Assembly: GCA_017938925.1 (NCBI GenBank)
Contig: JAGBAO010000013.1
Coordinates: 161,037 to 225,036, forward strand
Direction: 5' to 3'
Length of the DNA stretch: 64,000 bases
DNA from: Bacteroidales bacterium
GTDB lineage: Bacteria; Bacteroidota; Bacteroidia; Bacteroidales; UBA932
The notes under the pieces are model-generated. The model saw nothing but the letters and a program-made list of their open reading frames with translations, was not told the DNA's origin and made no database searches. Below are positions 15,896 through 57,948 of the stretch, in pieces (the stretch's first letter is position 1; the number at the start of each line of letters is the position of its first letter). A program made the translations under genes and the position numbers.

Positions 15896-16042
15896 CTACC
15901 AGTTAAAATCGTTAAGAGATTTGAATGTTTCATTAGATTCGTTCGTGGAGTAGAATCCATCCACGCTCGAACACAAAAATCCCTCTGTGTACACTTTAAG
16001 CAACACACAAACTGGGGATTGGTAGTTTGATTCTTTTGTCAT
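15896..16042 (-). CDS. 48-residue micro-protein, NYxxP/GxLCxS/FNW family (member 1)
   Basis: A short open frame of 48 codons plus stop that begins the operon, about 55 bases after the predicted transcription start. The peptide begins MTKESNYQSPVCVLL, carries EGFLCSS near residues 20-26, and ends NDFNW before a TAG. Two other short frames in this window (25951-26085 and 57814-57948) share NYxxP, GxLCxS and the terminal FNW. All three end 2-4 bases before the first possible start of a fimbrillin-like lipoprotein. It has no clear signal peptide or transmembrane segment. The function is unknown; it could be a leader or coupling peptide, a structural partner of the fimbrillin, or a precursor peptide. 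The three-way match in protein motif and gene position is what supports it as a real gene. Confidence 0.7.
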   Translation of the reverse strand: MTKESNYQSPVCVLLKVYTEGFLCSSVDGFYSTNESNETFKSLNDFNW

Positions 16043-16084
16043 ATTTTTGATTATTAGTTAGGTAAAATACTTTAAATTCACATT

Positions 16085-16100
16085 ACTTAAACGGTTAAGT
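16085..16100. promoter_or_regulatory. LacI-type operator palindrome
   Basis: ACTTAAACGGTTAAGT is palindromic at 14 of 16 positions with a central CG, the usual form of a LacI/GalR-family operator. It overlaps or immediately follows the expected start of the minus-strand operon transcript (about 16098) and lies beside the divergent LacI-type gene. Binding here would be expected to repress the operon. Inferred from sequence only. Confidence 0.5.
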
Positions 16101-16104
16101 TGCG

Positions 16105-16135
16105 CAAAGTTACGACTTTTTTCAGATATTAACAA
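16105..16135 (-). promoter_or_regulatory. Bacteroides-type promoter of the 16042-1 operon
   Basis: On the minus strand a -33 TTG (16133-16135) is separated by 20 bases from a -7 TAACTTTG (16105-16112), matching the Bacteroidota housekeeping promoter pattern. Transcription should begin near 16098, giving a leader of about 55 bases before the micro-protein ATG. Confidence 0.65.
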
Positions 16136-16189
16136 TAGACAGCCGGATATTTGAGCAGTCAGAATTTTACAATTGTCGGATTTGTTTTA

Positions 16190-16197
16190 TATCTTTG
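16190..16197 (+). promoter_or_regulatory. -7 element of the LacI-type regulator gene
   Basis: TATCTTTG fits the TAnnTTTG consensus and lies 57 bases before the ATG at 16255. No convincing -33 element at the usual distance was seen, so the call is tentative. Confidence 0.4.
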
Positions 16198-16254
16198 CAG
16201 TCGTATTACAGGAAATCATCCACGACAATCCTATATAAATATCAATTTCACAAG

Positions 16255-17259
16255 ATGGGTGTATCATTGAAAGACATAGCTGCAAAACTCGGCATTTCCA
16301 AAACAACCGTATCCTGGGTCCTTTCGGGCCAAGGAGACAAGCGAAACATCAGCACCGAGACCCAAGAAAGGGTCAGAGCATGCGCTAAAGAGTTGAACTA
16401 CAGTCTGAACGGGCTTGCACGCAGTCTGAACCTCGGCTACACAAAGACCATCGGACTTATTCTGCCTTCCATCTCGGACTCGTTCTACGCGAACATTGCA
16501 AACAGGGTCGGACTCGTTGCCAATGCTTCCGGCTACTCCCTCATGATTGCTTCCTCAAAATATAATGCAGACAAAGAGGAGGAGCTGATCCGTCTCTTTG
16601 TCGAGAAGCAGGTGGACGGGATCATTCTGGCACCGATGAAGCTCACACAGGATAGTCAGGAATACATTCAATTCGACAAAGTACCCCTGGTGTTCATAGA
16701 CAGGAATTACGAGGATCTTGAGACCAGTTATGTGATAATAGACAATAAGGACACTAGCCGGATCCTTGTAGACAATATGATAAGACTTGACGGATGCCGC
16801 CGTGTGGCATTGGTGACATGCGACCCGCATATGCTGACGATGGACGGCAGGCGCTGCGGATATGAAACCGCATTGCTGGAAAACGGCATAGACATCGACC
16901 CATCATTATGCTTGAGCGTCCATATTGCATCCTATAAGGACGAATTGCCTGAAGCTTTAGAAAAATTCCTCTCATCCAATGATGATGTAGACGGATTCTT
17001 CTTCACTACGCACATACTTCTTGAAGAAACGATCAAATTCTTCTGCACCAAAGGAATAGACATCGGCAGGTACAAGATGGCGTCCATGAGAACCAACCCT
17101 TTCCTGGAGTTCATGGTACCATACCTGAGAGTAGCTCACTTTCCGGAGAACGAGATGGGAAAGAAGGCTGTGGAAATCCTGCTGAACCATATCGAGTCCC
17201 GGCAAAAGGGAGAACCATGGAGAAATCAGGAAGTGACACTGAATTGCAGTTTCCAATAA
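16255..17259 (+). CDS. LacI/GalR-family transcriptional regulator
   Basis: 334 residues from the ATG at 16255; the longer in-frame start at 16195 lies inside the predicted -7 region and is rejected. The N-terminus is a standard LacI helix-turn-helix and hinge (VSLKDIAAKLGISKTTVSWV, then LNYSLNGLARSL). A periplasmic-binding-protein-like sensor domain follows (TIGLILPSISDSFYANIA, DGIILAP, RRVALVT, DGFFFTT). Such proteins bind a palindromic operator and are released or activated by a small ligand, usually a sugar or nucleoside. It is divergent from the long minus-strand operon with an operator-like palindrome between them, and is followed 20 bases later by the GH3 gene. It probably controls both units. 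The effector is unknown. Confidence 0.93.
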   Translation: MGVSLKDIAAKLGISKTTVSWVLSGQGDKRNISTETQERVRACAKELNYSLNGLARSLNLGYTKTIGLILPSISDSFYANIANRVGLVANASGYSLMIASSKYNADKEEELIRLFVEKQVDGIILAPMKLTQDSQEYIQFDKVPLVFIDRNYEDLETSYVIIDNKDTSRILVDNMIRLDGCRRVALVTCDPHMLTMDGRRCGYETALLENGIDIDPSLCLSVHIASYKDELPEALEKFLSSNDDVDGFFFTTHILLEETIKFFCTKGIDIGRYKMASMRTNPFLEFMVPYLRVAHFPENEMGKKAVEILLNHIESRQKGEPWRNQEVTLNCSFQ

Positions 17260-17279
17260 AAACATCAAAAACACCTAAC

Positions 17280-19544
17280 ATGCTGAAGCCACTGCTTTTT
17301 ACAATCCTGCTCGCAACCAGCGCGACACAGGTCAAGGAGAACCTCAGACTCAATGAAGACAATATCCCAGAAATCGTAAAGGAACTGACAGTCGAAGAAA
17401 AATGCGAACTGATTGTCGGAGGCCGCGCCGAGATGTTCAAGCCGAAGGCATATAAAAAGGTAAAGGCTCCGGGAGCAGCCGGTGTGATCAATGAGATTCC
17501 ACGTCTGGGCGTGCCGGCTGTCGTGCTGGCTGACGGCCCTGCAGGAGTGCGCATCAGACCTCACCGTCCGGGAGACGACAGGACATTCTATTGCACAGGC
17601 TTCCCTATCGGCTCGCTGATTTCGTCCACATGGAATACGGAGACAGTGGAAGAAGCCGGAAGGACAATGGGAAGCGAGGCCAAGGAATACGGAGTCGATG
17701 TGCTGCTAACCCCGGGAATCAACATCCACCGCAACCCTTTGTGCGGAAGGAACTTCGAATACTATTCGGAAGACCCGCTCCTTAGCGGCAAGATAGCCGC
17801 AGCCATGATAAACGGCATCCAGAGCAACGGTGTGGGCACCTCCCTCAAGCATTATGCGGCAAACAACCAGGAGACCAACCGCCTTGTGAACAACTCCATC
17901 GTGTCTGAGAGGGCTCTCAGGGAAATCTACCTGAAAGGATTTGAGATCGCCGTCAAGGAATCGCAGCCCTGGACCATAATGTCTTCCTATAATTATATTA
18001 ATGGTGAGCATGCCTCCCAGAGCTACAGGCTCCTGACCGAAATCCTCCGTGATGAATGGGGATTCGAAGGCGTCGTGGTTTCGGACTGGGGTGCGGGATA
18101 TGACGAAGCTGCACAGGTCAGATCGGGCAACGACCTTCTCCAGCCTGGATATGACTACAACTACCACAACCTCCTCAAGGCAGTTCAGGACGGATCGCTC
18201 AGTATGGAGGATCTGGACAGGGCCGTGGCAAGGATCCTCAGACTGTCCCTCAAGACCAACAGATATAAAGGATACAAGTACAGCGAAGCACCTGACCTTG
18301 CTGCAAACGCCCAGGCAAGCAGGAAGATCGCGGAAGAAGGGATAATCCTGCTCAAGAACAGGAAAGAGGCGCTGCCGGTTGCAACCGATGACAGGATTGC
18401 CCTTTTCGGAGTGACTTCATACGACTTCATCGCTGGCGGAACAGGCTCAGGAGACGTGCACAGGCCGTATGTTGTGGATCTCAAGCAGGGACTTGCCAAT
18501 GCCGGCTTCACACTTGACGCCGACGTGGACGCCTTTTATAAGGAATATATGGCTGACGAGAAGATGAGGTGTGACCGCATCAACGGAGACAACGGATGGC
18601 AGATCGACAGGGAGCGTGCGATAGAAGTGACTCCAGTCGAGCTTATTGAAAAGGCCGCTGACTACTCTGACTGCGCGATCATCACCTTCGGCCGCGTGTT
18701 CGGTGAGGGCAAGGACAGGAACTACCATTACAACTATCTCCTGTCGGAGGATGAGCAGCGACTGCTGGAAACAGTTTCGAAGGCCTTCCATAAGCGCGGA
18801 AAGAAGGTCAGCGTGATCCTCAACATCGGAGGTCTGGTGGAGATGCACTCCTGGAGGAATCTGGCTGACGCGATTCTCCTTTGCTGGCTTCCGGGACAGG
18901 AGGGAGGAAACGCCGTTGCATCTGTCCTCTCGGGAGAGGTGAACCCAAGCGGTCACCTTCCGTCCACCATATCCAAGGACTATCGGGATGAGCCGTCAGC
19001 CGGCAACTTTCCTATCCTCTATGCAGACAAGCCTTTCAACTATTCGTTCTACAGACAGCTGGACGGCCGTGTACGCAATCTGATCAAGAACATCGACTAC
19101 ACCCTCTATGAGGAAGGGATATATGTAGGATACCGCTATTTCAACACCTTCAAAAAGAGAGCAATCGCCTATCCTTTCGGTCATGGTCTGAGCTACACCG
19201 ACTTCAAGTTCGGAAAGATGCAGGTGGAAGAGGCTGAGAACGGCTGGAATGTGAAGGTCCGGGTGACCAACACTGGAAAGGTCGCAGGAAAGGATGTGGT
19301 TCAGATCTATGTCAAGGCTCCGCGCAAGGGTCTGGACAAGCCGGAGAGGGAATTAAAAGGATTCGCCAAGACACCTGTGCTGGCGCCTGGCGAATCATGC
19401 GAAGTCGAAATATTCATTTCCAAGGAAAGTCTGGCGTCATATGACGAATCTGCCGGTTCATGGGTGACCGCCAAAGGCAGGTACACATTCATTGCAGCCA
19501 GGAACTCCCTCGACAATTCCAGAAGGAAGCGCGTGCGGATTTAG
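17280..19544 (+). CDS. Glycoside hydrolase family 3 (beta-glucosidase-like), exported
   Basis: About 754 residues from the ATG at 17280, which starts a short signal-like segment (MLKPLLFTILLATSATQ). An ATG at 17217 inside the LacI gene is less likely. The GH3 barrel is clear: LADGPAGVR, LLTPGINIHRNPLCGRNFEY, KHYAANNQETNR with Lys190-His191, and the nucleophile region VVVSDWGAG with Asp269. The second alpha/beta domain and a C-terminal fibronectin-III-like domain (HGLSYTDF, VTNTGKVAGKDVVQIYVKAP, LAPGESCEVEI) complete the usual three-domain form. It should remove beta-linked glucosyl, xylosyl or similar units in the periplasm. It follows the LacI-type gene in one transcript and overlaps the convergent DeoR gene by four bases at the stops. 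Confidence 0.94.
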   Translation: MLKPLLFTILLATSATQVKENLRLNEDNIPEIVKELTVEEKCELIVGGRAEMFKPKAYKKVKAPGAAGVINEIPRLGVPAVVLADGPAGVRIRPHRPGDDRTFYCTGFPIGSLISSTWNTETVEEAGRTMGSEAKEYGVDVLLTPGINIHRNPLCGRNFEYYSEDPLLSGKIAAAMINGIQSNGVGTSLKHYAANNQETNRLVNNSIVSERALREIYLKGFEIAVKESQPWTIMSSYNYINGEHASQSYRLLTEILRDEWGFEGVVVSDWGAGYDEAAQVRSGNDLLQPGYDYNYHNLLKAVQDGSLSMEDLDRAVARILRLSLKTNRYKGYKYSEAPDLAANAQASRKIAEEGIILLKNRKEALPVATDDRIALFGVTSYDFIAGGTGSGDVHRPYVVDLKQGLANAGFTLDADVDAFYKEYMADEKMRCDRINGDNGWQIDRERAIEVTPVELIEKAADYSDCAIITFGRVFGEGKDRNYHYNYLLSEDEQRLLETVSKAFHKRGKKVSVILNIGGLVEMHSWRNLADAILLCWLPGQEGGNAVASVLSGEVNPSGHLPSTISKDYRDEPSAGNFPILYADKPFNYSFYRQLDGRVRNLIKNIDYTLYEEGIYVGYRYFNTFKKRAIAYPFGHGLSYTDFKFGKMQVEEAENGWNVKVRVTNTGKVAGKDVVQIYVKAPRKGLDKPERELKGFAKTPVLAPGESCEVEIFISKESLASYDESAGSWVTAKGRYTFIAARNSLDNSRRKRVRI

Positions 19545-20305
19545 GCGATTATGACCTCTACGCCCAGGGCTTCGATCTTCCTTTTGACGGAAGCGCTGAT
19601 TCCGGAATCTGTGATGAGGGTGTCCACATCCTCTATTCCACAGATCCTGCCGAATCCGCATTTTCCTATCTTGGACGAATCAGCCAGCAGGATTCTCTGT
19701 TGAGCAACATTCATCATGGATTCCGTCAGATGTGCCTCCTCGACAAAGGCACTTGTCACTCCATCCTCGATGCTGAATCCGTCACAACTGAAGAACAGCT
19801 TCGAACACCTGACATTATGGAGTCCCTGGATGGCGTACTCGTCACGTGTGGACATTGACTCAGGCACGATACGTCCGCCCAATATCCTCAGGTCCACCTC
19901 CATCTTCTCACTCAGGATCACACCAAGTCTTATGGAAGGAGTCACAACCTTCATCGGACCTTTGGATCTGATCTGTCTTACAAAAGCTTCGATTGTCGAT
20001 CCGGAAGTCACTCCCATCGAATCGTTGTCACTAAGAAGGGCAGCAGCGGCAGCTGCAATCCTGGCTTTTTCCTCGGGATTGATGGCACTTCTGTCAGTCA
20101 GGGACAACTCTATCACCTTGTCGTGCACCAGAGAGGCACCTCCGTGGTTTCTGCGGAGGATGTTCTCCTCCTCCATTATCTTCAAGTCCCTCCTGATTGT
20201 CGCTCCAGTAACCTCGAGCTGTTCAGCAAGATCCTGAACGGTGACGAATCCGTTCCTATATAACTGTTCCTTTATATACAGATGCCTTTCCGATATGCTT
20301 TTCAT
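19541..20305 (-). CDS. DeoR/GlpR-family transcriptional regulator
   Basis: 254 residues from the ATG at 20305. An upstream in-frame ATG at 20326 overlaps the predicted -7 element and is rejected. The N-terminus is the DeoR winged helix (FVTVQDLAEQLEVTGATIRR, then RRNHGGA). The rest is the phosphosugar-sensing DeoRC domain (SGSTIEAFVRQI, GGRIVPESMSTRDEYAI, DGFSIEDGVTSAFVEEA, LLADSSKIGKCGF, TLITDSG). Such regulators usually repress sugar-use genes and respond to a phosphorylated sugar. Very similar regulators lie at 44957-45724 and 45781-46546. Its gene is convergent with GH3 and sits just past the end of the 42255-20393 locus, so it may serve either unit. The regulon is unknown. Confidence 0.92.
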   Translation of the reverse strand: MKSISERHLYIKEQLYRNGFVTVQDLAEQLEVTGATIRRDLKIMEEENILRRNHGGASLVHDKVIELSLTDRSAINPEEKARIAAAAAALLSDNDSMGVTSGSTIEAFVRQIRSKGPMKVVTPSIRLGVILSEKMEVDLRILGGRIVPESMSTRDEYAIQGLHNVRCSKLFFSCDGFSIEDGVTSAFVEEAHLTESMMNVAQQRILLADSSKIGKCGFGRICGIEDVDTLITDSGISASVKRKIEALGVEVIIA

Positions 20306-20323
20306 ATAGCTTTCAAATTTGCG

Positions 20324-20331
20324 CAAAAGTA
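20324..20331 (-). promoter_or_regulatory. -7 element of the DeoR-type gene at 19541-20305
   Basis: TACTTTTG on the minus strand fits TAnnTTTG. The upstream sequence TTCCGGACATTTTTTTA closely matches that before the ECF sigma gene (42278-42298). The leader would be only about 12 bases, fixing the start at 20305. Confidence 0.45.
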
Positions 20332-20392
20332 TAAAAAAATGTCCGGAAGTAAAAACTCGCGAACATTTTCAGGATTAGGTGGATTCTCAAAA

Positions 20393-23161
20393 CTATTTTG
20401 CAGTAATCCAGCTGCCGACAGCCTTATATATTTCAGAAGCCATGAAATCCATGCCGGCAGCATCAGGATGCGAGCCTCCACACTTGCTCAAAGGCGGGCC
20501 AGTCGTCTGCCATCCGCTGATTGCCGGAAAGTCAACCACACGGCAATCATAATGATCCGCAATGTCGAGAATTGACTGCTGGATGGCATGATGATCTTGA
20601 GAACCTGCATGGTCACCTATGATGCAGACAATCTTCACAGACGGATACTGGAGCTGCATCATCCTTATCAGTTTGACATAAGCCGATACGAAAGTGCTGT
20701 TATCCAGTTCCTTTGCCTGTGCAAGTGTCGCGCAGGCATCTGCGTCCTCATATACGGATGCCATGGCTTCGTCCGATGGTTTGTCCTTGCTCAACATTGA
20801 CTGAGTGCCAAGAAGGTATTCATTCCTTGGAGTCTGCCAGCAGTCGTTTGTTCCGCCATGAATGAAGATCACATCAGGCCTTCCCATTCCCCCGCACTCG
20901 ATGTAGCGTGCGCAGAAATCCTTTCCGTAATAGTAATTTCCTGAATCCTCAGCCGAATTCTTCACCACGGTGGTTCCAGCATAGGAAAGGTTCATATCGA
21001 GTCGTGCAGACGGCAGATAATGATAGATGAGTCTGTGCCACCAGGTCTTGTCAACCGAGTTCACATCATAGCCTTCCTGATCCTTCGGATAATGGCATCC
21101 GTATCCGTTCGGAACCCATCCGGCAAATGTGGATATCGAATCCCCGATTATAGACACGCGCAGTTTCTTTCCCGGCTTATGGTCCGGATCCGACGGAATT
21201 CCTTCTATCACAGGATATCCGTCAGTACCGGTCACCCATGCCTTTGCTCCTGAAGGGAGATTGTCGTTGAGAAGATCCAGCAGGGTTCCGTCGGTCATTT
21301 CCTTATATGACATTTCCCGGCATTCCGTCTTGATCTCCGAGCCACCCGCAGGTCCGAACTTAATGTCTGCAGGAGCATAACAGCCGGTCAGAGAGGCCGC
21401 CTTTGTGCTGCGTCCGAAGAAACTGCCATAGTATCCGTTCGACAATGCCGTCACCGGACCGGAGTTATAAAGTATGTCAGATGTCGCCATGCACACAGCA
21501 CAGTTCGTGAAGGTATGAGGCGAATCTATATATCCGACAAAGCCTGCTATTCCTCCACCTGCCGCCAGAATTCCTGATACGGTCTCCGCATAGGAAAGGC
21601 AGTTGACAAAAGACGCCTTTCCTGCACCTTTGGCATAACCGCAGATCCCTCCGGCAAGCTGCCACATGGCAGTTCCTCCGGCAGAACCAGTTGCATACAC
21701 CTGACAGCCGTATGCCGCACAGTTCGAAACCGTAAGCACATCAGAAGCTCCGTTATCCACAAGGCCTATGATTCCACCGGTATTGTTCAAGCCACGTACA
21801 ACTCCATAGGCGGCACAATTATCTATCAGCACCTCTGCTCCGCCCGAGGAAGCGTATACCATTCCGACGATTCCACCGGCATCAGGCTTTGCCTGATTGA
21901 CCTCACCGGCAGTTGTAAACACGCAATCCTGGATCCGGCCTCTGCTGATGCGTCCGACTATTCCGCCGGCACTGTTTCCGGTCGCTGTGATTCTTCCGCG
22001 ACACACACAGCCTTCGATTTCTGCACCGCCGCGGCAGAACCCGACTATTCCACCGGCAATCCATCCCGTTGCCACATTACCCGAAAACTCACAGTCAGAG
22101 ACTTGGATGCTTCCCGTCTCGGATGACGAAGCCACACCTATGATTCCGCCTGAGCGATGAGTGGTCGCATAGACAGAACCCTCGAACTTACATCCTTTGA
22201 CAACCCCCTCATAGGCATGTCCTATAACGCCTCCTGTAAGAGAATTGTCCTTGAGGTCGCCGCTTGAAGGAGCGCCTGTATTCTTGATTTCTGCAGCCTT
22301 GACGATGCAGTTCTCGATTGTCGAGCAGCGGATATCACCGACAACTGCACCTGTGTAGTATGAGGAAGAGTTGATCACCATGCCATCTATCACGACATTC
22401 CGGATGACAGCGCCTTCTCCTGCAAATCCGAACAGACCGGCAGGCATTCCGGCCACACTCTGGCTCACCTTCAGGTTGGAAATCTTGAAGCCACCGCCAT
22501 CATAGACACCGGCGAACCTCAGTTCCGAGATCAGTCCTATCGGGGTGTAGTCAGCCGCATCCGACATGTCGATATCGGCAGTCTGCCTGTAATACTTAGT
22601 TGAATAGACGGCTGCGGAATCTGCTCTGGCCATATAGTCAGACAATGTGAAAAGATCCTTGTCCGTCGAGATGAGGTACGGATTATCTTCAGTACCCGCA
22701 CCACCGGAGAACAGCATGAAGGCAGCCTGTTCCACTGTGATCTTCCTTGATTCGCCTGTCGAATAGGTTATCGTGAACACGGCAGTCCTCGATTCTAAAG
22801 TCGTATTCTTCCTGACCAGGACATGCAGAGTCTCTGAAGGAGTGGAACATTTATCACCGAGCACGATCCAGCCGGCTCCTGTTTCCACCTCATACTCAAT
22901 ACTGCTGTCTATGCTGATGCAGAACGAGCCTCCTTCATGCGGGAAGGTGACCTTGTCCACACTCGCATCGAGAAAGATGACCGTATCTCTGATCTGAACG
23001 GTATCCTGGACATGGACAGTATCCTGGACATGGACGGTGTCCCTGATCAATTCCTGCTGCGGCTCTTGATCCGGCTCCTTTATATCCACCTTCTCACAGG
23101 CTGCAATGAAAGCCATTGCAGCCATTAGAGAAAGTATAATGCTTTTTAAATTGTATCTCAC
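20393..23161 (-). CDS. Lipoprotein with BACON, GLUG repeats and SGNH-hydrolase domain
   Basis: 922 residues with a lipobox (AFIAAC, Cys22). A linker near 35-60 repeats DTVHVQ-like units. A BACON-like domain follows (about 62-148, VEQAAF at its end), then GLUG-type repeats (about 155-620; NPYLISTDKDLFTLSDYMAR, GGIIG and GGIVG units). The C-terminal SGNH/GDSL domain (about 665-920) has IGDSIS as block I, an Asn/Gly turn (NLSYAGTT), GGTNDCW as block III, and GGSHPDAAGM as block V. The block V Asp is Gly here while the His is kept, so activity may rely on a Ser-His pair or be weakened. Such domains remove acetyl or other esters from glycans. It is the last gene of the locus, eight bases after the fimbrillin/beta-helix gene. 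Confidence 0.82.
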   Translation of the reverse strand: MRYNLKSIILSLMAAMAFIAACEKVDIKEPDQEPQQELIRDTVHVQDTVHVQDTVQIRDTVIFLDASVDKVTFPHEGGSFCISIDSSIEYEVETGAGWIVLGDKCSTPSETLHVLVRKNTTLESRTAVFTITYSTGESRKITVEQAAFMLFSGGAGTEDNPYLISTDKDLFTLSDYMARADSAAVYSTKYYRQTADIDMSDAADYTPIGLISELRFAGVYDGGGFKISNLKVSQSVAGMPAGLFGFAGEGAVIRNVVIDGMVINSSSYYTGAVVGDIRCSTIENCIVKAAEIKNTGAPSSGDLKDNSLTGGVIGHAYEGVVKGCKFEGSVYATTHRSGGIIGVASSSETGSIQVSDCEFSGNVATGWIAGGIVGFCRGGAEIEGCVCRGRITATGNSAGGIVGRISRGRIQDCVFTTAGEVNQAKPDAGGIVGMVYASSGGAEVLIDNCAAYGVVRGLNNTGGIIGLVDNGASDVLTVSNCAAYGCQVYATGSAGGTAMWQLAGGICGYAKGAGKASFVNCLSYAETVSGILAAGGGIAGFVGYIDSPHTFTNCAVCMATSDILYNSGPVTALSNGYYGSFFGRSTKAASLTGCYAPADIKFGPAGGSEIKTECREMSYKEMTDGTLLDLLNDNLPSGAKAWVTGTDGYPVIEGIPSDPDHKPGKKLRVSIIGDSISTFAGWVPNGYGCHYPKDQEGYDVNSVDKTWWHRLIYHYLPSARLDMNLSYAGTTVVKNSAEDSGNYYYGKDFCARYIECGGMGRPDVIFIHGGTNDCWQTPRNEYLLGTQSMLSKDKPSDEAMASVYEDADACATLAQAKELDNSTFVSAYVKLIRMMQLQYPSVKIVCIIGDHAGSQDHHAIQQSILDIADHYDCRVVDFPAISGWQTTGPPLSKCGGSHPDAAGMDFMASEIYKAVGSWITAK
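22982..23045 (-). repeat. Short tandem repeat encoding DTVHVQ-type units
   Basis: About three to four imperfect 18-base units encode RDTVHVQDTVHVQDTVQIRD in the linker between lipobox and BACON domain. It is probably a flexible stalk whose length can vary by recombination. Confidence 0.6.
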
Positions 23162-23169
23162 CTTGATTG

Positions 23170-25932
23170 TTATTTAACCAACGCTCCCTGACGATTGTTG
23201 GCAGATGTGCGCTTCATGCCGCGGGCATCGGTATCAGCTGCGCCGATGGAAGTCAGCCAGTTGTAGAACATTGTACCGAACACGTGGCCACTCTTTCTTG
23301 CTGTTGTCTGTGACTTGATGGCTGTTGCAACCTCATCGACAGTAGGTTTCTTGGTCACTGTCGCGCCCTCAGGAATGCTGTAGTCATAGAGATAGTTCGG
23401 TTTCTCTGATGTTCCGTAGTTGGTTTCAGTGAAGTTGAAGTCTGACCAGGTCTTGGTGATGACACTGTCGTCAGTTGCATTATCTGTATAGCAATAATTA
23501 TGACCTCTATTGTCTATTTCCTGATAAAGGTTATAAAATCCTTTGATAGCAAAGGTAAGTCCAGACTCTACCCAATTTACGAATATCGGGCTTATTGATC
23601 CTCCGAAAGATGTGGTTTTCTTACTGCAGACGATGCTGTTTACCAAGACACTACCATCAAGATTTCCATAACCATTTTTATTATATTGATACTGCAGTTC
23701 CGGTACTTTATCTCCTTCTCCAAGAAGTGTACAGTTTGCAACTATTGATTTACCTTGTAAAAAAACGTCTCCTTGACCAGTCAATGTAGCATTATATACA
23801 CCACCTGAAACCGTACAATTGTTCATTCCTAACATTCCGTCATAGTTTTTAAAGCCCGAAACCAATGCTATTGTAGAGCCGGTTCCCTGCGTTCCATTAA
23901 GAATATTGTCCTTAAAAGTACAAGCATTCAGGAATACCGGGAGAGTGCCAGGAACCCACAGGGCAGCACCTCGGCCCGATGAGGTATTCCCCTCAAAGAG
24001 ACACTTGTCAAACGATACAAATTCGCCGTTGTATGAATCCGCATGCGATGTCGGCCAGCTGCTGCTGACAGCAACCGCACCACCTGCATTGCCCAAGAAT
24101 TTACAATCTGAGAAATCAACGGGAACCTTTGCGTTACCATCACCGTTATTTGAAGTGGACGTGCCTATAATTGCTACTGCACAATGATTAAGTCCGTCAC
24201 GCGTATCCGGTGTGACATTATTCTGAAATGTTGTACCAGTGATGGTTACCTTCTTGCCATGACTGAGCATAAGTGCGGCTCCACCACCTGCCGAAGAGTT
24301 GGCATCGTCTGAAGAAGTTCCGCCAAAGACGGAATTCTTTATAGTCAGAGTATTGTTCCTCTGATCGTTGTTGAAGAATATGGCTCCACCGCTCCTTGCA
24401 GTGGTCTTATTACTTACAAAGGTACATCCGTCGAAGGTTGCGCTTGAATTTGCGATAAATATGGCACCTCCAAACTTCGAACTCTCATTACCGTCAAAAA
24501 CACATGAATTGAAGGTGGCCTTTGTACCATGCTGAGTAATGGCGACAGCGCCACCTGTATATACGGTACTCTTGTTGTTATTGAACTCACAATTATTGAA
24601 TGTCACCACACTTAAATTATCCAGATCAATAGCACCACCGATATCTTTGATTCCATTGACTTCCGTACTACCATAAGTCTCATTTTTAGCATCCTTGAAG
24701 ATCACATTATTTATGGTAGCGTTAACGTTCAACCACAAAGCCATGATCGGGTGGGTTCCGCCACCTGTGAAAGCAGCCTTTGCTGCATCGCTCTTATTTC
24801 CATCTGCATCATAACCTCCATCTATCGTGAACGTTGTCTTGGAAAGCAGGTATGTAGCCTGGAATGTCAAGGCCTCGTTTGTTCCTGCATTCATAGTTCC
24901 CGGCAGTTCGTAATCACCCTGAGCCATACGGATCTCCTGTCCGTCAAGACGCCATGCAGCTGCTCTGCGCTGATATGTATCATCACTCTTAGGAAGCGGA
25001 GTGGACATCAGGTCGGAAATAAGCGATACGCCCGCAGCATCATCCCATGAGGTACCCTTTCCTGTAGCTCCGGCCTTAATGTAGTATGCATCACCGACGC
25101 TCGTATCCACAACTCCCAAAGGTCTGATGTGGGCAGCCTCAACCACAAGGTCATTGTCGGTAGCCTTTGGAGTGAGAGCCTTTTCTGCTGTCTTGAGCTT
25201 GAGTCCCACACTCTCCATGGTTACGCCCGGAACGATAGCGATGTAGTTCTCTCCAGCCTGGATATCCTTCACTACAATCTCAGACTTGGTGTCAGTTGCT
25301 TCTCCCACCGTCATTTTTCCTTCCTCATCAAAGGTAAGAGGGCATGTTCCTGCAATGCCTGCAGACCTGAAGAAATCCTTGAACACGGCTGTCTGGATTC
25401 CCTTAGGGTTTCCTTCCGAAACAGTGAATGAGACCAGACCGGCCACATGCTGGAAATGCAGGCTTGCAGCACCTGCTGTGGTAGTAGCGGCAAGGATATC
25501 CGCATTCTTGAATACAGCGGACTGCTCAGCCGGAATCGTCACTTTGAAAGTTCCTTCCTCGAGGCTTGCAGAAGCTGTAGATGGATACACCGCATAAATC
25601 TTGGCGTCCTCTGTCAGAGGCTCCTCCAAAGGAATAGTGAATGAGGCAGTCGTGCCCTCGCCAGAAATGACGGCAGGCAGTGATTCTGCACTTCCTCCAT
25701 CAAAATAGACCTTGATTCTGTCACCTTCTGTCCAAGTGATCTCAGTGCCCTCACGCTGGGTCTTGGTCTCGCCAGAGAATGCTACAAGTGTGATGGAATC
25801 CGTATAGACCGGACATTCCGCATCAGGAGTCTGCTGAGTTCCGTCCATCATTTCATTTTCAACTGCAATCTCCTCCATACAAGACACAAGAGAGACTGCT
25901 GCAATGAGGCTAAAAAGTCTAGTGTGTTTCAT
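23170..25932 (-). CDS. Fimbrillin-like lipoprotein with Pmp-like beta-helix
   Basis: About 920 residues from the ATG at 25932 (MKHTRLFSLIAAVSLVSC, lipobox). An in-frame ATG at 25947 would add acidic MEDKK; a GGAGG precedes the chosen start. Residues about 35-265 are fimbrillin-like (VAFSGETKTQREGTEITWTE, IYAVYPSTASA, LHFQHVAGLVSFTV, NYIAIVPGV). From about 280 on there is a right-handed beta-helix with recurring GGAI and FxxN motifs (FNNCEFNNNKS, GGAVAITQ, FDGCTFVSNKT, GGAIFF), as in polymorphic outer-membrane-protein repeats. It follows the second FNW micro-protein by three bases when counted to 25947. The gene is tightly linked to GH2 upstream and SGNH downstream. A surface-exposed adhesin or substrate-binding role is likely; no catalytic residues were found. 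Confidence 0.78.
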   Translation of the reverse strand: MKHTRLFSLIAAVSLVSCMEEIAVENEMMDGTQQTPDAECPVYTDSITLVAFSGETKTQREGTEITWTEGDRIKVYFDGGSAESLPAVISGEGTTASFTIPLEEPLTEDAKIYAVYPSTASASLEEGTFKVTIPAEQSAVFKNADILAATTTAGAASLHFQHVAGLVSFTVSEGNPKGIQTAVFKDFFRSAGIAGTCPLTFDEEGKMTVGEATDTKSEIVVKDIQAGENYIAIVPGVTMESVGLKLKTAEKALTPKATDNDLVVEAAHIRPLGVVDTSVGDAYYIKAGATGKGTSWDDAAGVSLISDLMSTPLPKSDDTYQRRAAAWRLDGQEIRMAQGDYELPGTMNAGTNEALTFQATYLLSKTTFTIDGGYDADGNKSDAAKAAFTGGGTHPIMALWLNVNATINNVIFKDAKNETYGSTEVNGIKDIGGAIDLDNLSVVTFNNCEFNNNKSTVYTGGAVAITQHGTKATFNSCVFDGNESSKFGGAIFIANSSATFDGCTFVSNKTTARSGGAIFFNNDQRNNTLTIKNSVFGGTSSDDANSSAGGGAALMLSHGKKVTITGTTFQNNVTPDTRDGLNHCAVAIIGTSTSNNGDGNAKVPVDFSDCKFLGNAGGAVAVSSSWPTSHADSYNGEFVSFDKCLFEGNTSSGRGAALWVPGTLPVFLNACTFKDNILNGTQGTGSTIALVSGFKNYDGMLGMNNCTVSGGVYNATLTGQGDVFLQGKSIVANCTLLGEGDKVPELQYQYNKNGYGNLDGSVLVNSIVCSKKTTSFGGSISPIFVNWVESGLTFAIKGFYNLYQEIDNRGHNYCYTDNATDDSVITKTWSDFNFTETNYGTSEKPNYLYDYSIPEGATVTKKPTVDEVATAIKSQTTARKSGHVFGTMFYNWLTSIGAADTDARGMKRTSANNRQGALVK

Positions 25933-25950
25933 TTTCTTGTCCTCCATAGA

Positions 25951-26085
25951 TTACCAGTTAAACTCATCGTCAATAGTGACATCCTGAACAATGGAGCCTT
26001 TGCCGTCGATGCCTGACATGCATAAAGGCCCTTCAAGGTTGAATTCCATGATATCAACCTGAGGTTTCAAATAATTTTGTTTCAT
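25951..26085 (-). CDS. 44-residue micro-protein, NYxxP/GxLCxS/FNW family (member 2)
   Basis: The frame starts MKQNYLKPQVDIMEF, has EGPLCMS near residues 18-24, and ends DDEFNW before TAA. An in-frame ATG at 26103 would add six residues (MKQPLI). It lies between the phosphoesterase/GH2 gene (28 bases upstream) and the fimbrillin-like lipoprotein, whose first possible ATG follows the stop by three bases. The 3' end reads TTTAACTGGTAA, nearly the same as at the other two members (TTTTAACTGGTAG). The shared ending at DNA and protein level, together with the conserved downstream partner, supports a real coding function. No signal peptide or known domain was seen. Confidence 0.7.
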   Translation of the reverse strand: MKQNYLKPQVDIMEFNLEGPLCMSGIDGKGSIVQDVTIDDEFNW

Positions 26086-26113
26086 AATCAGTGGTTGTTT
26101 CATTTAGTTATAC

Positions 26114-32244
<6,131 letters not shown>

Positions 32245-42545: not shown

Positions 42546-42553
42546 TACCTTTG
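42546..42553 (+). promoter_or_regulatory. -7 element of the G1P dehydrogenase operon
   Basis: TACCTTTG fits TAnnTTTG and sits 18 bases before the ATG at 42572. A TTTG upstream is only 16 bases away, so the -33 is weak. Confidence 0.45.
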
Positions 42554-42571
42554 CACAATATTCGGAAAACC

Positions 42572-44952: not shown

Positions 44953-44956
44953 CAGC

Positions 44957-45724: not shown

Positions 45725-45765
45725 AAAAAGGACTCGCTGAAAGAGAATATCAGCGAGTCCTTTTT
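45725..45765. terminator. Bidirectional intrinsic terminator
   Basis: Perfect 16-base arms (45725-45740 and 45750-45765) around a nine-base loop: an A-run followed by GGACTCGCTGA, then the complement followed by a T-run. It serves the plus-strand DeoR operon and the convergent DeoR gene at 45781-46546. Confidence 0.92.
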
Positions 45766-45780
45766 GAATTCATATGGATG

Positions 45781-46546: not shown

Positions 46547-46569
46547 TTTCCAAATGTTTAAAACAATCG

Positions 46570-46577
46570 CAAAAATA
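46570..46577 (-). promoter_or_regulatory. -7 element of the DeoR gene at 45781-46546
   Basis: TATTTTTG on the minus strand matches the consensus 23 bases before the ATG. Next to it is the 14-base perfect palindrome GAAAAATATTTTTC (46578-46591), a possible autoregulatory site. Confidence 0.5.
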
Positions 46578-46659
46578 GAAAAATATTTTTCATTACGAAA
46601 AAATCTCTGAATCCGAGATGGATATACAGGGGCAAAAAATATCAGCCAGAGTGAATTGT

Positions 46660-46677
46660 TGAAAATAATTGTTTTCA
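46660..46677. promoter_or_regulatory. Inverted repeat upstream of SusC, possible DeoR operator
   Basis: TGAAAATAATTGTTTTCA is symmetric at 16 of 18 positions. It lies between the divergent DeoR gene and the SusC promoter, 23 bases before the -33 element. It is a candidate binding site, inferred from position and symmetry only. Confidence 0.35.
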
Positions 46678-46700
46678 TTCTTAAAAAACATGAAAACTTG

Positions 46701-46733
46701 TTTGTATGCTCATTCTGCATATGCCTAACTTTC
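46701..46733 (+). promoter_or_regulatory. Promoter of the 46759-60571 SusC/SusD locus
   Basis: TTTG (46701-46704) lies 21 bases before TAACTTTC (46726-46733), one mismatch from the -7 consensus. Transcription would begin near 46741, leaving a leader of less than 20 bases before the SusC ATG. Confidence 0.5.
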
Positions 46734-46758
46734 GGAAACAAAACCACTAATTCACGCT

Positions 46759-49776: not shown

Positions 49777-49789
49777 GGACACAGATATC

Positions 49790-51463: not shown

Positions 51464-51475
51464 AATTTTCTTGAT

Positions 51476-52897: not shown

Positions 52898-52932
52898 TAT
52901 TGACAAATAATCATTCACACATCAACACTTGT

Positions 52933-54108
52933 ATGAAAAAACACCGATTAAACAAACTGATTCCAGCAGGAATTCTCGCTCTCTCAATCTTTGCAGCGTC
53001 TGGGTGTACACAAAAGTCTTACTTTGACTCGCTGCCACAGGGGTGCGACCCAATTGAGGTCGGCCGAGGCATAACTCAACTCTTCATAGACAAGGATAAG
53101 CCTGAAAGAACAACCAAAAAAGGCATGACCTATGTAAAATATACCGTCACGAGCGAATGGGCAAACTGCCTTGAATTTGCACGTGGCATTGGCGACAAAA
53201 AGATGGAAGATGCTCTGATTGCAATGTGGGAGCCTTTCAATGACGGTGGTGAGAAAGAGACCTTTCGCTCACACAAGTGGCATGTAGATTATTCTGTCTT
53301 TGGAGCAGTTCCATTGCAGGTTTACTGCCTCAACTCGGATCCACGCGCCTATAAGATAGGTATGGACTATGCTGACAATCAGTGGAGTATGCCATCTGAG
53401 AATCCAGCAGAGCACTCCCTCACCAAGGTTCCATATGAAAAGCAGCTTGAATGGTTCTCACAAGGTTATTCTCCACAGACCCGTCTCTGGATTGACGATA
53501 TGTACATGATCACATTCCTGCAGTTGCAGGCATATAAAGCAACTGGCGACCTCAAATATGTAGAACGTACTGCCAAGGAACTTGCTCTCTACCTTACTAA
53601 CCTTCAGCAAGAGAATGGACTGTTCCTCCATACACAGGACGCCCCTTACTACTGGGGACGCGGAAACGGATGGATGGCCGCAGGAATGCCAATGCTGCTC
53701 AAAGTTCTTCCAAAAGACAACGAGCACTATGCAATTATCGAAAGTTCATACCTGAAGATGATGTCTACCCTATTGAACCTTCAAAGAGAAGACGGTCTCT
53801 GGGGACAGTTGCTCGACGAGCCAGAGTCTTATGGAGAGACATCATGCACCGCCATGTTTACCTATGCATTCATTGAAGGATATGCTGCCGGGGTTCTCAA
53901 TGAGAAATACGCAAAGGCTGCCAGAAAAGCATGGATTGCCCTCTGTGGAAAACTGGAAAATTTTGAACTCACAGATGTCTGCATCGGCACCAACGGTAAT
54001 CCCGACAAGGAGTTCTATATGAACAGGGCTCGCAAGACCGGTAACGAACATGGACAGTGCGCTATGATGTGGGTGGCAAATGCACTCGTGAATAATCCAA
54101 ACCTTTAA
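52933..54108 (+). CDS. GH105-family unsaturated uronyl hydrolase, lipoprotein
   Basis: 391 residues from the ATG at 52933, which begins a lipoprotein signal (IFAASGC, Cys25). The in-frame ATG at 52900 gives a polar extension. The (alpha/alpha)6 barrel signatures of GH88/GH105 are present: HVDYSVFG (Asp119), TRLWIDDMYMI with Asp188-Asp189 at the expected catalytic site, APYYWGRGNGWMAAG, and SCTAMFTYAF. These enzymes release the unsaturated uronic acid left at oligosaccharide ends by polysaccharide lyases, as on rhamnogalacturonan or ulvan fragments. It lies upstream of a BNR-4-type propeller gene, a possible lyase partner. By eye its base composition is a little more AT-rich than its neighbours, possibly from a separate origin. 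Confidence 0.9.
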   Translation: MKKHRLNKLIPAGILALSIFAASGCTQKSYFDSLPQGCDPIEVGRGITQLFIDKDKPERTTKKGMTYVKYTVTSEWANCLEFARGIGDKKMEDALIAMWEPFNDGGEKETFRSHKWHVDYSVFGAVPLQVYCLNSDPRAYKIGMDYADNQWSMPSENPAEHSLTKVPYEKQLEWFSQGYSPQTRLWIDDMYMITFLQLQAYKATGDLKYVERTAKELALYLTNLQQENGLFLHTQDAPYYWGRGNGWMAAGMPMLLKVLPKDNEHYAIIESSYLKMMSTLLNLQREDGLWGQLLDEPESYGETSCTAMFTYAFIEGYAAGVLNEKYAKAARKAWIALCGKLENFELTDVCIGTNGNPDKEFYMNRARKTGNEHGQCAMMWVANALVNNPNL

Positions 54109-54110
54109 AA

Positions 54111-55430
54111 ATGAACCTGATGAAAAGAATATACTTAATATCAGCACTTATTGCACTGCTCTCTTGCAATATCTATGCAGATGCCCAGGTCCGCCGTCTG
54201 CCGACTGTCAAGGAAGTCGACTGCAACTATTTCCGCGAAGTGGCCAGCGTGGATGATATGGCCTGGACATGGTGGTTCGGCCCGCAGGTGTGGTCGTGCG
54301 ACGATTATAAGTCTAAACTCTGGTGGGGCTATACATCGGCAAGAGGCTACACCGGCATTGCAGAGTATGATGCAACTGACGGAAACTTCCGCAAGGTCCA
54401 TCTTAAGAAGTGTACATGGAATGACGACCACAACAACAGCGTGGTGGTCATGCTTCCAGACCGCAGGGTCGCTTGCATATACACATATGGCCATGACAAG
54501 AGCAATGAGGTCTATGTAAGAATTTCCACCGGATATGAGTCCATCGATGAATTCGGTGATGCCATTCCTATCGAGTTCGCCGGAACAACCACTTACATCC
54601 AGTACTTCTTCATGAACGGGAAGCACTACATCTTCACAAGAACCAAGCAGGACACCTACAAATGGGCCTGGACAAGTTCTGAGGACATGGTGAACTGGAC
54701 AGAGCCTGTAGAATTCATCACGGCAACCAACAAAAGATATTACATCAAGCTTCAGAGAGTTACGGATGTGGACGGAGTCATCCGTATAGTTGCCTATGGC
54801 CACCCTACCCAAAGCAAGGACTGTAGGGTCAGGATGGGCTTCATAGACTTCAACGACGGCAACGTCTATAACAAGGACGGCAAGACTGTGGTCACACGCC
54901 TGGGGGACTGCTTCGACTACACGGAGCTCGATGTGCTGATTCCAAATGAAGAAGGAAAAGTCCTGCGCCTGTTCGACGTGGCAGCCTGTCCGAAAGACGA
55001 GTGTGCCGTTGCTGTGGCGTCATTCACAAAGGATATAAAGACTGACTCCCGTTACCTGATCTACAAGAACGGAGAGATCCAGGACATCACGGCAGGAGGA
55101 CTGCCTTTCTGGAACTACTCGGTCTATCTGGGAGGCGTCAGCTTCATAGACAAGGACAGAGTGGCACTGTGCAGGAACGACGGACTTGAAGACTACGGAA
55201 CTGACTATGTGGAGCTCTGGAAATTCAAGGGAGGAAAATGGAAAAAGGAGAAGTGTCTCCACAAGGAAAAGGTCGGAGAGGACATCATCAGAAACCTTCG
55301 TCCTATCGTGGACTATAAAGGACGCTATCTGCTGTGGCAGCGCGGCTGCTATGACCATAGAAAGAAAGGACATACTTTCACACTTGAAGCCAAGATCTAC
55401 GATCTGGAGAAAGAGAAACTTATAAGGTAA
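54111..55430 (+). CDS. BNR-4-type seven-bladed propeller, possible polysaccharide lyase
   Basis: 439 residues; the signal peptide spans about residues 1-26 (start at 54111, or 54120 for MKRIYLIS). The mature protein is a beta-propeller with WWFGPQVWSCDDYKSKLWWG, then TWNDDHNNSVVVMLPDRRVA and YTYGHDKSNEVYVRIS. The DDHNN element (105-109) and the later His128 correspond to a motif seen in BNR_4-type proteins, including PL24/PL25-like ulvan lyases as recalled from family knowledge. In those lyases His, Tyr and Arg side chains act on uronate. It begins two bases after the GH105 gene, the usual partner of a lyase. It could instead be a non-catalytic or sialidase-like propeller, so the enzymatic role is an inference. 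Confidence 0.65.
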   Translation: MNLMKRIYLISALIALLSCNIYADAQVRRLPTVKEVDCNYFREVASVDDMAWTWWFGPQVWSCDDYKSKLWWGYTSARGYTGIAEYDATDGNFRKVHLKKCTWNDDHNNSVVVMLPDRRVACIYTYGHDKSNEVYVRISTGYESIDEFGDAIPIEFAGTTTYIQYFFMNGKHYIFTRTKQDTYKWAWTSSEDMVNWTEPVEFITATNKRYYIKLQRVTDVDGVIRIVAYGHPTQSKDCRVRMGFIDFNDGNVYNKDGKTVVTRLGDCFDYTELDVLIPNEEGKVLRLFDVAACPKDECAVAVASFTKDIKTDSRYLIYKNGEIQDITAGGLPFWNYSVYLGGVSFIDKDRVALCRNDGLEDYGTDYVELWKFKGGKWKKEKCLHKEKVGEDIIRNLRPIVDYKGRYLLWQRGCYDHRKKGHTFTLEAKIYDLEKEKLIR

Positions 55431-55442
55431 ACAATAATTGCT

Positions 55443-57806
55443 ATGAAAAAACACTTGAAACTGCTTGCTGCGATCATGATCGCGGCAGCTTGTGCAGAAG
55501 TAGAGCCTGTTCCGGAGCCGGAACCTGAACAGAATCAGGAACAGAATCAGGAACAGGTGACGCCACCCGAAGAAGATGATGAGGATGCGACTCCGGTGGA
55601 GCCGTCTGATTTCAGGGCTGTCCTGGCAGAGCAGGCAACAGGTATCGAGACCACACTTTCCTGGAAAGCGGGAGATGCCATCACATTTTTCTGGAACGGC
55701 GAGTCTTCTACCGTATCCATTGATGAAGCGACAGATACGGTTAGGTTTGAGCAGAAGGTGACTGCCGGAACTTACTATGCCGTATATCCTGCTTCAGCAG
55801 CAAAGGAACAGTATGGGGATGCCGTGATGGTGGACATTCCTACGGTTCAGAGCGGAACGTTGGAAAATGCCTTTATCTGGTTTGCTGAAACTGATTCCTT
55901 GAACAGGGTGTTCGAACTGCGGCACCTGGGCTCACTGGGAAGCATAACCTTGGGAAGGAGCGACATCCGTAAGATCACGATTTCCGGCAACAAGGATGAA
56001 GGAATTGCAGGAACAGTATATGCTTCGATCGGTGAGGACGGCAAGCCATCCTGCGCAGAGGCAGATGCCACTGAGATCATCCTTGAACCTGCAGGCGGAG
56101 AGACTTTCAGCCCTGGCACTTATTACTTCATAGCCACACCGGGCTCCCTTTCCGACGGTCTGTCCTTTACCTTGGAGACCAGCGGAGGCAACATGATGTT
56201 CGGCAGCGCGTATCCTGACGAAGCCAAGCTGGAGCGAGGTACCCTCATGTCCTTCGGAACCATTGATGACATCTCATCAGCAGACGCACTGAGGCTTCGT
56301 TTCATTTTCGGACCGGAAGCTGGTGCGAAGGCTAAGTATGACAAGCACGATTGGCCTGATACAGACTGGCCAACAGACCTGCATGAAGGCAAATATTACG
56401 ATTACACTATAGATGAGCAGGTCTATAGCTTTTATGTCAAAGATCTTGTCCAATCGACATCCAAGAATTTTAAATGGAACACTAATGATGATGCCGGTTA
56501 TGCTGACCGTATCGCTATTCCATCTGCAACTGTTTACTTCGGTCTTCCGGCCATTGACGGTCTTCGACTGAGCAATGTCGTGGTCGGTCAGTCCAGAAGA
56601 GGTGCAACAGACAATGCTGAAAACAAGATCACCAAAGTAGGTATCACAGACTGTATCCCAGCTGAGGCCGGAGCGACAAAGAGCTATGTATCAGGCGGTG
56701 AACTTCAGGACTGGCCCGGATGGTCCGGATCGAAAGACAAGAAAGTGGTTGACCACGAATTCAAACTCTCCGGGACGCAGGCGAATACCGTATATTATCT
56801 CAACAGCGACAATGCTTCGATCGGTCTTTACTTCTCCCGCCTCGTCCTTACATACGAGAAGCCGGAGTGCTCCTACAAGGGATTTCCCGAGAACTGGCCG
56901 CTGGAAAGTGAAATAACAGGTGGAGAAACAGGGGGAGAAGCAGGGGGAGGTTCAACCACCAATGTCGACGCCAATGCAGACATCCGCATACTTTTCATCG
57001 GCAACAGTTTCACCCGCGATGCTGTATTCCATCTTCCGGGAATGATCAAGGCAGCAGGTACAGACAAGAAGATACTGCTTGTCCACATGTATTACGGAGG
57101 CCGCACTGCACAGAATTATTTCAAGAACTGGAACAAAAACCGCGACTTCACCTGCTATGTGACGCTTCCTGGTGCGGACAGCTGGATTACCGACAAGACT
57201 GCCGGCACATTCACCCTCGCAGAGATGGCCGCACGTGCCGACTGGGATTTGGTTGTGGTGCAGGAGCACACCGGAAACCAGTACTCCTGGTATTGGACGG
57301 AAGATGAGAAGACCGCTCTCCAGGGGATAATCGACTATGTCAAGACTGCGAAGTCAGGCAATACACCAAAGGTGCACTACGTGATGTCTCAGGCTTATCA
57401 GAATCTTGAAAAGGCAGGTAGTAACCAGAACTTCAGCAACGAGGCAGAAATGTACACGGTGATTACGACCCAGGCCCGCAAGGTTATGGAAGAGACAAGT
57501 TTCGACGGAATCATCTCCACCGGCACAATGCTCCAGAACCTGCGTACATCCTCGCTCAACGACGACCTGCACCTGACACGTGACGGATTCCACATGAATC
57601 TCGGAATTTCACGCTATGGAGCAGCCTGCACTGTGTTTGAATCCATAATCAGTCCGCTGACAGGCAAGAACCTGGACGGGAATACCTACCGCTACGCAGC
57701 AGAGGACGACATTACCATTCCGGTGACTGATGAAAACGCCCCGATCGCACTGGAGGCTGCTCGTGCAGCAATAGAAAAACCATACGAAATCACAACTCTT
57801 AATTAA
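55443..57806 (+). CDS. Fimbrillin-like lipoprotein fused to an SGNH hydrolase (DUF4886-like)
   Basis: 787 residues with a lipobox (IAAAC, Cys17) and an acidic Gln/Glu/Pro linker built from a tandem QNQE unit. Residues about 55-290 are fimbrillin-like (YYAVYPASAAKEQYG, LRHLGSLGSITLGRSDIRKI) and about 290-480 repeat the second domain of the protein at 51476-52897. After a Gly/Glu linker, residues about 515-770 form an SGNH hydrolase: RILFIGNSFTRDA (Ser in GNSFT), VVVQEHTG, and LHLTRDGFHMN with Asp and His of the catalytic triad. Such domains deacetylate glycans. The fusion would place esterase activity on a surface stalk. It starts 12 bases after the propeller gene. Confidence 0.8.
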   Translation: MKKHLKLLAAIMIAAACAEVEPVPEPEPEQNQEQNQEQVTPPEEDDEDATPVEPSDFRAVLAEQATGIETTLSWKAGDAITFFWNGESSTVSIDEATDTVRFEQKVTAGTYYAVYPASAAKEQYGDAVMVDIPTVQSGTLENAFIWFAETDSLNRVFELRHLGSLGSITLGRSDIRKITISGNKDEGIAGTVYASIGEDGKPSCAEADATEIILEPAGGETFSPGTYYFIATPGSLSDGLSFTLETSGGNMMFGSAYPDEAKLERGTLMSFGTIDDISSADALRLRFIFGPEAGAKAKYDKHDWPDTDWPTDLHEGKYYDYTIDEQVYSFYVKDLVQSTSKNFKWNTNDDAGYADRIAIPSATVYFGLPAIDGLRLSNVVVGQSRRGATDNAENKITKVGITDCIPAEAGATKSYVSGGELQDWPGWSGSKDKKVVDHEFKLSGTQANTVYYLNSDNASIGLYFSRLVLTYEKPECSYKGFPENWPLESEITGGETGGEAGGGSTTNVDANADIRILFIGNSFTRDAVFHLPGMIKAAGTDKKILLVHMYYGGRTAQNYFKNWNKNRDFTCYVTLPGADSWITDKTAGTFTLAEMAARADWDLVVVQEHTGNQYSWYWTEDEKTALQGIIDYVKTAKSGNTPKVHYVMSQAYQNLEKAGSNQNFSNEAEMYTVITTQARKVMEETSFDGIISTGTMLQNLRTSSLNDDLHLTRDGFHMNLGISRYGAACTVFESIISPLTGKNLDGNTYRYAAEDDITIPVTDENAPIALEAARAAIEKPYEITTLN

Positions 57807-57813
57807 TAACAAT

Positions 57814-57948
57814 ATGAAAAAAACAACCAACTATGTCAGTCCGGAAGTGCAACTTCTGCAGATGACGGGAATGGGCATTTTGTGTGCCTCCCAACTGTTC
57901 GACTCCGAGCAGAATGAATCAATAATTGAAAACACTTTTAACTGGTAG
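57814..57948 (+). CDS. 44-residue micro-protein, NYxxP/GxLCxS/FNW family (member 3)
   Basis: The frame starts MKKTTNYVSPEVQLLQ, has GMGILCAS near residues 19-26, and ends ENTFNW before TAG. It starts seven bases after the SGNH-fusion gene and its stop is two bases before the ATG of the fimbrillin-like lipoprotein at 57951. The last bases, CTTTTAACTGGTAGCC, nearly repeat those of member 1. Between LCAS and FNW the sequence is variable and acidic (DSEQNES). No signal peptide, transmembrane segment or known domain was found; the function is unknown. Confidence 0.72.
   Translation: MKKTTNYVSPEVQLLQMTGMGILCASQLFDSEQNESIIENTFNW

Follow-up and report, generated by a model that had tools for sequence, protein, structure and literature searches.

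Small genes paired with fimbrillin-like lipoprotein genes in Bacteroidales: candidate precursors of an LPP-like peptide pathway

Three short frames in the window (the whole 64,000-nt stretch of DNA analysed here) are genes of a large, unnamed family of gut and rumen Bacteroidales whose members mostly precede, at short distance, a gene for an adhesin-like surface lipoprotein, and the pairing of these micro-genes with genes for fimbrillin-like lipoproteins lies far above background. The encoded peptides are probably RiPP-type precursors of a pathway like that of linear polyphosphorylated peptides (LPPs), that is, short peptides that would be secreted and post-translationally modified. The features of the window are listed in Table 1.

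Table 1. Micro-genes of the window, their partner genes and a promoter-like element
Feature	Position	Strand	Description
Micro-gene 1	15896..16042	-	48 aa; first of its gene string
Micro-gene 2	25951..26085	-	44 aa; 50 aa if read from the in-frame ATG at 26103
Micro-gene 3	57814..57948	+	44 aa
Lipoprotein gene, partner of micro-gene 1	12559..15891	-	1110 aa if started at the ATG at 15891; contains GLUG motifs; Pfam gives no fimbrillin-like match
Lipoprotein gene, partner of micro-gene 2	23170..25947	-	925 aa; Mfa_like_1 (fimbrillin-like) above cut-off
Lipoprotein gene, partner of micro-gene 3	57951..59330	+	459 aa; aligns with the other partners over an N-terminal region
Promoter-like box TAACTTTG (TAnnTTTG)	16105..16112	-	Ends 62 nt upstream of the ATG of micro-gene 1; TTG about 20 nt further up

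The coordinates and lengths that the first-pass annotation gave for the three frames are correct, and N-Y-x-x-P, G-x-L-C-x-S and a C-terminal F-N-W are present in all of them. The DNA conservation described at the stops is seen in TTTAACTGGTA, which spans the stop codon of each frame, and the lipoprotein ATGs at 15891, 25947 and 57951 follow after 4, 3 and 2 nt, within the claimed gap of 2-4 nt. As also described, micro-genes 2 and 3 are internal to their gene strings and micro-gene 1 leads its own. The box upstream of micro-gene 1 is presumably a -7 box of the Bacteroidales type. Micro-gene 2 starts 28 nt past a 1440-aa ORF ending at 26114, with the additional ATG six codons upstream, and a SusD gene lies on the same strand and side. 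Micro-gene 3 starts 7 nt past a 787-aa ORF ending at 57806, and its gene string includes TonB-receptor (SusC-type), SusD, GH88 and DUF4886 genes. Chance frames had been called unlikely, and a strict motif search agrees, since it finds just these three frames in the window and no match in 40 versions of the window generated by a first-order Markov model. The description of the partners as fimbrillin-like holds in part: micro-gene 2's partner passes the Pfam cut-off (33.7 versus 27 bits), whereas the other two have no such match, and their kinship with it is read from the N-terminal alignment of the partners.

The genome that holds the window (2.67 Mb, 92% complete; hereafter the own genome) contains about 30 copies of the family. 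A profile of the three window peptides finds 29 places in it (E<=10), and a profile of 25 own-genome members finds 33 (E<=1), the 25 seeds counting among the 33 by construction. With the own genome included throughout, positive genomes number 10 of 21 in a sample of relatives (profile A2, E<=0.01; congeners 9/12, other families 0/8), 18 of 59 in a family sample (profile A3, E<=0.001; 7/25 genera), and 7 of 198 (profile A4, E<=0.001) and 19 of 392 (profile A7, E<=3e-4) in samples of the order; these samples and that of the phylum overlap. The phylum sample has one positive genome in 296, the own genome (profile A4, E<=1e-4), which is weak evidence of absence elsewhere because the threshold is strict and the profile biased toward the family. 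Seven further loci lie in MAGs whose titles read Bacteroidales bacterium or uncultured Bacteroidales bacterium; goat, water deer and yak gut are the source of some. None of the 25 members scores above a curated cut-off of Pfam or NCBIfam; the best matches below cut-off (Pfam E 0.021 and 0.12, NCBIfam E 0.14) concern one member each.

Close micro-gene pairs are under purifying selection: dN/dS in nine pairs, some sharing a member, is 0.26, 0.09, 0.42, 0.25, 0.21, 0.26, 0.31 and 0.62, with one value undefined (zero synonymous changes). A profile search of relatives, an inspection of genomic context and the pattern of synonymous changes, which the first-pass annotation had proposed as checks, all came out in its favour. 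Its account of genes, of a family and of lipoprotein pairing far above background stands, but it had missed the roughly 30 genome copies and some distant relatives that no lipoprotein gene follows. Two of the 33 own-genome matches encode an identical micro-protein, on two contigs (C5:288803-288925 and C13:28306-28428), followed in both by a 749-aa frame with the same start; this repeat is either a recent duplication or assembly redundancy.

The core of the family consists of YxxP and a Ser 19 residues past the Tyr, followed by a variable tail that is acidic and aromatic. This spacing is fixed: among 121 distinct peptides, which were picked for Y..P so that Tyr and Pro are fixed by that choice, the residue at Tyr+19 is Ser in 109, encoded by AGY in 76 and by TCN in 33, and the residue at Tyr+17 is Cys in 83 and Ala in 21. 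Between YxxP and the Ser lies the motif EG[VI][LI]CxS. AlphaFold2 predicts no stable fold for a window peptide (pLDDT 64, pTM 0.17). The FNW ending, which had been taken as a mark of the family, does not survive comparison with the C-termini of the own-genome matches, as 4 of 33 end in FNW and one in FNWN. A reading of LCxS as a lipobox was rejected by eye, the preceding hydrophobic stretch being absent, and a ribosome-arrest leader is disfavoured because the motif lies at very different distances from the stop. One locus (L142, G023:C1:923942-936586) has three micro-genes in 6 kb with a near-identical long tail ending in PKPDKNKLIG and with lipoproteins 113-144 nt downstream.

A micro-gene was scored as paired when a lipoprotein with a signal peptide starts within -45 to +60 nt of its stop. 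This is the case for 30 of the 33 own-genome matches, at distances of -20 to +23 nt; the misses are C2:40862 (lipoprotein at 193 nt) and C15:9038 and the weak C2:6568, for which none was found. The count is 24 of 27 within the genus (two of the three misses at contig ends) and 21 of 25 within the family, where 25 loci were taken from 50 non-own matches and the remaining four have a lipoprotein 113 to 391 nt away. Among A7 matches in other families of the order it is 16 of 24; here 24 of 30 loci were used, two own and two G061 rows being left out and two G042 rows (2/2 paired) counted apart. Genome G474, whose seven loci come from the A4 order search (the other non-own loci of that search recur in the A7 search), gives 1 of 7. 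The named MAG loci give 6 of 6, and in 7 of 7 a lipoprotein follows at a distance of 15 to 32 nt. L182 was left out of the counts, being identical to L066 in peptide and lipoprotein start. The control, drawn from the remaining ATG ORFs of 35-70 aa at these loci, gives 29 of 1715.

The 24 order sites include eight with no lipoprotein start in the scored range, among them L206, which lies in a 369-aa frame and is probably a spurious match. The six G474 sites without a following lipoprotein sit after genes with T9SS-like ends. Distant relatives in this position, directly 3' of genes whose C-termini resemble T9SS tails and with no lipoprotein immediately after, are L174 and L176-L180 (G474), L169 and L175 (G383) and L199 (G765); C-termini in G474 often finish in W-x-D/E-rich stretches.

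The partners resemble the Mfa_like_1 lipoproteins (PF13149) in the one window member that passes the cut-off and in a common N-terminal region with K-x..W..GD, but many of them reach a considerable length (up to 1110 aa), and of the 13 own-genome PF13149 matches no more than 5 fall in a gene that starts beside a micro-gene. The best-scoring Mfa_like_1 genes of the own genome (C34, C18, C5:164621; L084-L086, L088-L090), that of C2 excepted, have no micro-gene match nearby; therefore the pairing is a feature of a divergent group within the fimbrillin-like proteins. The structure model of a partner lipoprotein is poor (mean pLDDT 48.7) and a Foldseek search with it against the PDB gave no match at E<=0.001; the hits at ranks 3 and 4, FimA1 prepilin 6jzk (E 9.6e-3, prob 0.82) and BDI_3519 4jg5 (E 1.4e-2, prob 0.92), hint at a likeness to these proteins.

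The one-to-one pairing might also be expected if each micro-protein were a chaperone or cytoplasmic partner of its own lipoprotein, bound to the precursor ahead of export and linked indirectly to the RRE, a role that the first-pass annotation had offered as well. In the own genome, lipoprotein similarity correlates with the similarity of the tails (r=0.21, p=0.0015) but not with that of the leaders (r=-0.05, p=0.70). The co-variation is weak, however: it holds under stricter thinning (p=0.006) but weakens without one close pair (p=0.05) and fails by rank (p=0.14), and in the mixed set the leaders, too, correlate with the lipoproteins. Since a chaperone would also leave the cassette linkage described below unexplained, and the peptide model has no fold, this role is not borne out and we consider it improbable, if slightly less so than the two alternatives that follow.

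Another of the roles offered was that of a leader for translational coupling, in which ribosomes would re-start on the lipoprotein gene after the micro-frame, thereby setting its expression, while the peptide itself has no job. Leader genes are reported to raise downstream translation (PMC4833913), and the gaps in the 30 own-genome pairs are short enough. A pure coupling leader leaves the conserved residues unexplained, as they persist across divergent paralogues, the Ser in both codon classes; purifying selection in close pairs, distant relatives with no following lipoprotein and pairs 113 to 391 nt apart likewise make it unlikely. Of the three roles, the third, precursor of a processed peptide, has the strongest support, from the RRE-type leader motif, the layout of leader and variable tail, and linkage to LPP-like cassettes.

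In lasso peptides and LPPs, the leader motif that RREs bind is YxxP (PMC12710340, PMC10368454 and PMC13381572). LPPs are RiPPs of Bacillota, to which Popov et al. 2026 call them restricted (PMC13381572). As described there, each cluster has 1-3 precursors with the consensus YxxPxVLxHQxIxFETxxS, in which the phosphorylated Ser lies 18 residues after the Tyr; the kinase phosphorylates core Ser3, the peptidase cleaves with help from the RRE, and the gene set comprises SpI, a discrete RRE, an HprK-like kinase, an NTP-transferase and an MsbA-like exporter. Compared with that description, the micro-proteins are likewise short, with a conserved N-terminus that contains YxxP, a conserved Ser near its end and a variable C-terminus. 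In some genomes they occur beside a similar set of SpI-like, RRE, HprK-like, NTP-transferase and exporter genes, complete or in part, the kinase and peptidase being named here from matches below cut-off, and like some LPP clusters two loci (G029 and G078, by eye) are near polysaccharide loci. Unlike LPPs so described, they belong to Bacteroidales, where a single genome has about 30 copies, dispersed and each adjoining a lipoprotein gene. The full consensus is not matched either: common features are YxxP, a hydrophobic residue near P+2 in many, and Ser at 19 rather than 18, with EG[VI][LI]CxS in between, and the own genome has no kinase match. Lasso peptides (PMC10368454 and PMC12710340) also combine a YxxP leader, bound by a B1/PqqD-like RRE, with a discrete PqqD-like gene, but their Thr(-2)/Gly1 with an Asp/Glu ring partner is no common pattern in the micro-protein alignments (by eye), and inspection of the gene neighbourhoods drew attention to neither a macrolactam cyclase nor a B2 peptidase gene. 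Judged by titles and abstract openings, no published account of the micro-gene/lipoprotein pairing was found; the main text of PMC13381572 has no mention of 'bacteroid', and 'fimbri', 'S24' and 'YxxP' are all absent from that of PMC10352776, a paper on RiPP mining in Bacteroidales, with lasso and PqqD mentioned in its references and glossary only.

Further support for the precursor reading comes from gene co-occurrence. In the 59-genome family sample a PqqD-like discrete RRE gene is present in 15 of 18 micro-positive genomes versus 12 of the 41 that have no A3 match (p=1.7e-4), and an HprK-like kinase gene in 14 of 18 versus 8 of 41 (p=6e-5). The count by genus, the only one that takes kinship into account, gives PqqD in 7/7 micro-positive versus 8/18 negative genera (p=0.02). 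When G042 and G043 are counted as positive, because later searches found micro-gene variants there, HprK is found in 16/20 versus 6/39, a regrouping chosen after seeing the data. Three genomes with micro-gene matches (G046, G053 and G071, the last 99% complete) have neither PqqD nor HprK.

Physical linkage is partial. HprK and a micro-gene lie within 5 kb in 4 of the 14 genomes having both, versus 0.2 expected under uniform placement (P=3e-5), and in the other 10 the nearest micro-gene found lies farther away. In six genomes, genes for the kinase, an SpI-like peptidase and the RRE adjoin a micro-gene/lipoprotein pair, with an exporter in five and an NTP-transferase in three. G031, G069 and G034 have HprK, SpI, PqqD and ABC beside the pair; G029 adds the NTP-transferase, its lipoprotein being 391 nt from the micro-gene; G043 has PqqD, NTP-transferase, ABC, HprK, SpI, micro-gene and lipoprotein on one strand. 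G689, of another family, has HprK, SpI, PqqD, NTP-transferase, micro-gene and lipoprotein on one strand and no exporter within the 10 kb examined. In one set of 20 loci, most of the cassette is present in two, G689 and the already known G043, and the other 18 have no cassette, one of them having an ABC match alone. In another set of 20 loci the SpI-like gene adjoins HprK in 18, and the ten cassette loci L222-L231 have an exporter-like gene in seven and an NTP-transferase in three.

The PqqD, NTP-transferase and ABC domains score above Pfam cut-offs. The kinase is named from sub-cut-off matches and a GxSGTGKST motif, and the peptidase from sub-cut-off matches (TIGR02228, PF00717) and motifs; by eye, its Ser, His and Asp in GYSM/GASM, LHR/IHR and MGDGN are the residue types of the LppS triad (unaligned). 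In two loci (L226:4292-6478 of G072 and L231:7725-9902 of G054) the HprK-like domain is part of a single 725-728-aa frame, the further N-terminal part of which is presumably IspG-like.

The own genome has a discrete PqqD gene (88 aa, on C21) alone between glycosidase-like genes, with no SpI-like peptidase, NTP-transferase or MsbA-like exporter beside it at that locus, and no HprK match in the 92% complete assembly. It also encodes, on C5 (L220:6908-8558), a radical SAM/SPASM protein whose N-terminus includes a PqqD-like stretch, and 52 nt later a 41-aa frame that could be that enzyme's own Cys-containing precursor; this enzyme was set aside as the micro-gene maturase because it has this candidate precursor, devoid of YxxP, next to it. 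Double-glycine export by a C39 peptidase was rejected, such a peptidase being found in 8 of 14 control genomes and not in the own genome.

The presence of PqqD without an HprK match in the own genome, and the varying content of the cassette, would fit a RiPP-type precursor handled by a stand-alone RRE and other enzymes instead of an LPP-like kinase and peptidase. However, all 22 HprK-positive genomes of the family sample also have PqqD, the association of HprK with the micro-gene is about as close as that of PqqD, and the own genome's other RRE-bearing enzyme has its own candidate precursor adjoining, so that this version, too, has little probability.

For the LPP-like precursor reading we infer the following sequence of events. 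The N-terminal half of the peptide would serve as the leader, its YxxP held by the discrete PqqD-like RRE, while the near-invariant Ser at Tyr+19 would be phosphorylated by the HprK-like kinase. The SpI-like serine peptidase would cut close to this Ser, and the variable acidic tail would leave the cell through the MsbA-like exporter. The lipoprotein encoded next, presumably on a shared mRNA, may be the surface partner of the released tail, as receptor, anchor or recipient; the pairing and the weak tail correlation suggest this, and we hold it with less confidence than the precursor reading.

Should these predictions hold, an unnamed but abundant small-gene family of Bacteroidales gains a biochemical role that can be tested, and the micro-genes become candidate substrates for RRE/kinase/peptidase cassettes that have no adjoining precursor. 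LPP-type peptides would then reach from Bacillota to a major gut and rumen order. The discoverers of LPPs call their biological role unknown (Discussion of PMC13381572), and the one-to-one pairing with surface lipoproteins suggests where the function of this RiPP class might be sought. More speculatively, one trans-acting LPP-like machine may modify and export dozens of dispersed precursors in a genome-wide system of peptide display or signalling, each with its own fimbrillin-like lipoprotein that binds or carries it. If so, each variable tail would act as an address tag or a message for its matching surface protein, and some of these surface proteins would belong to glycan-use loci, as in this window.
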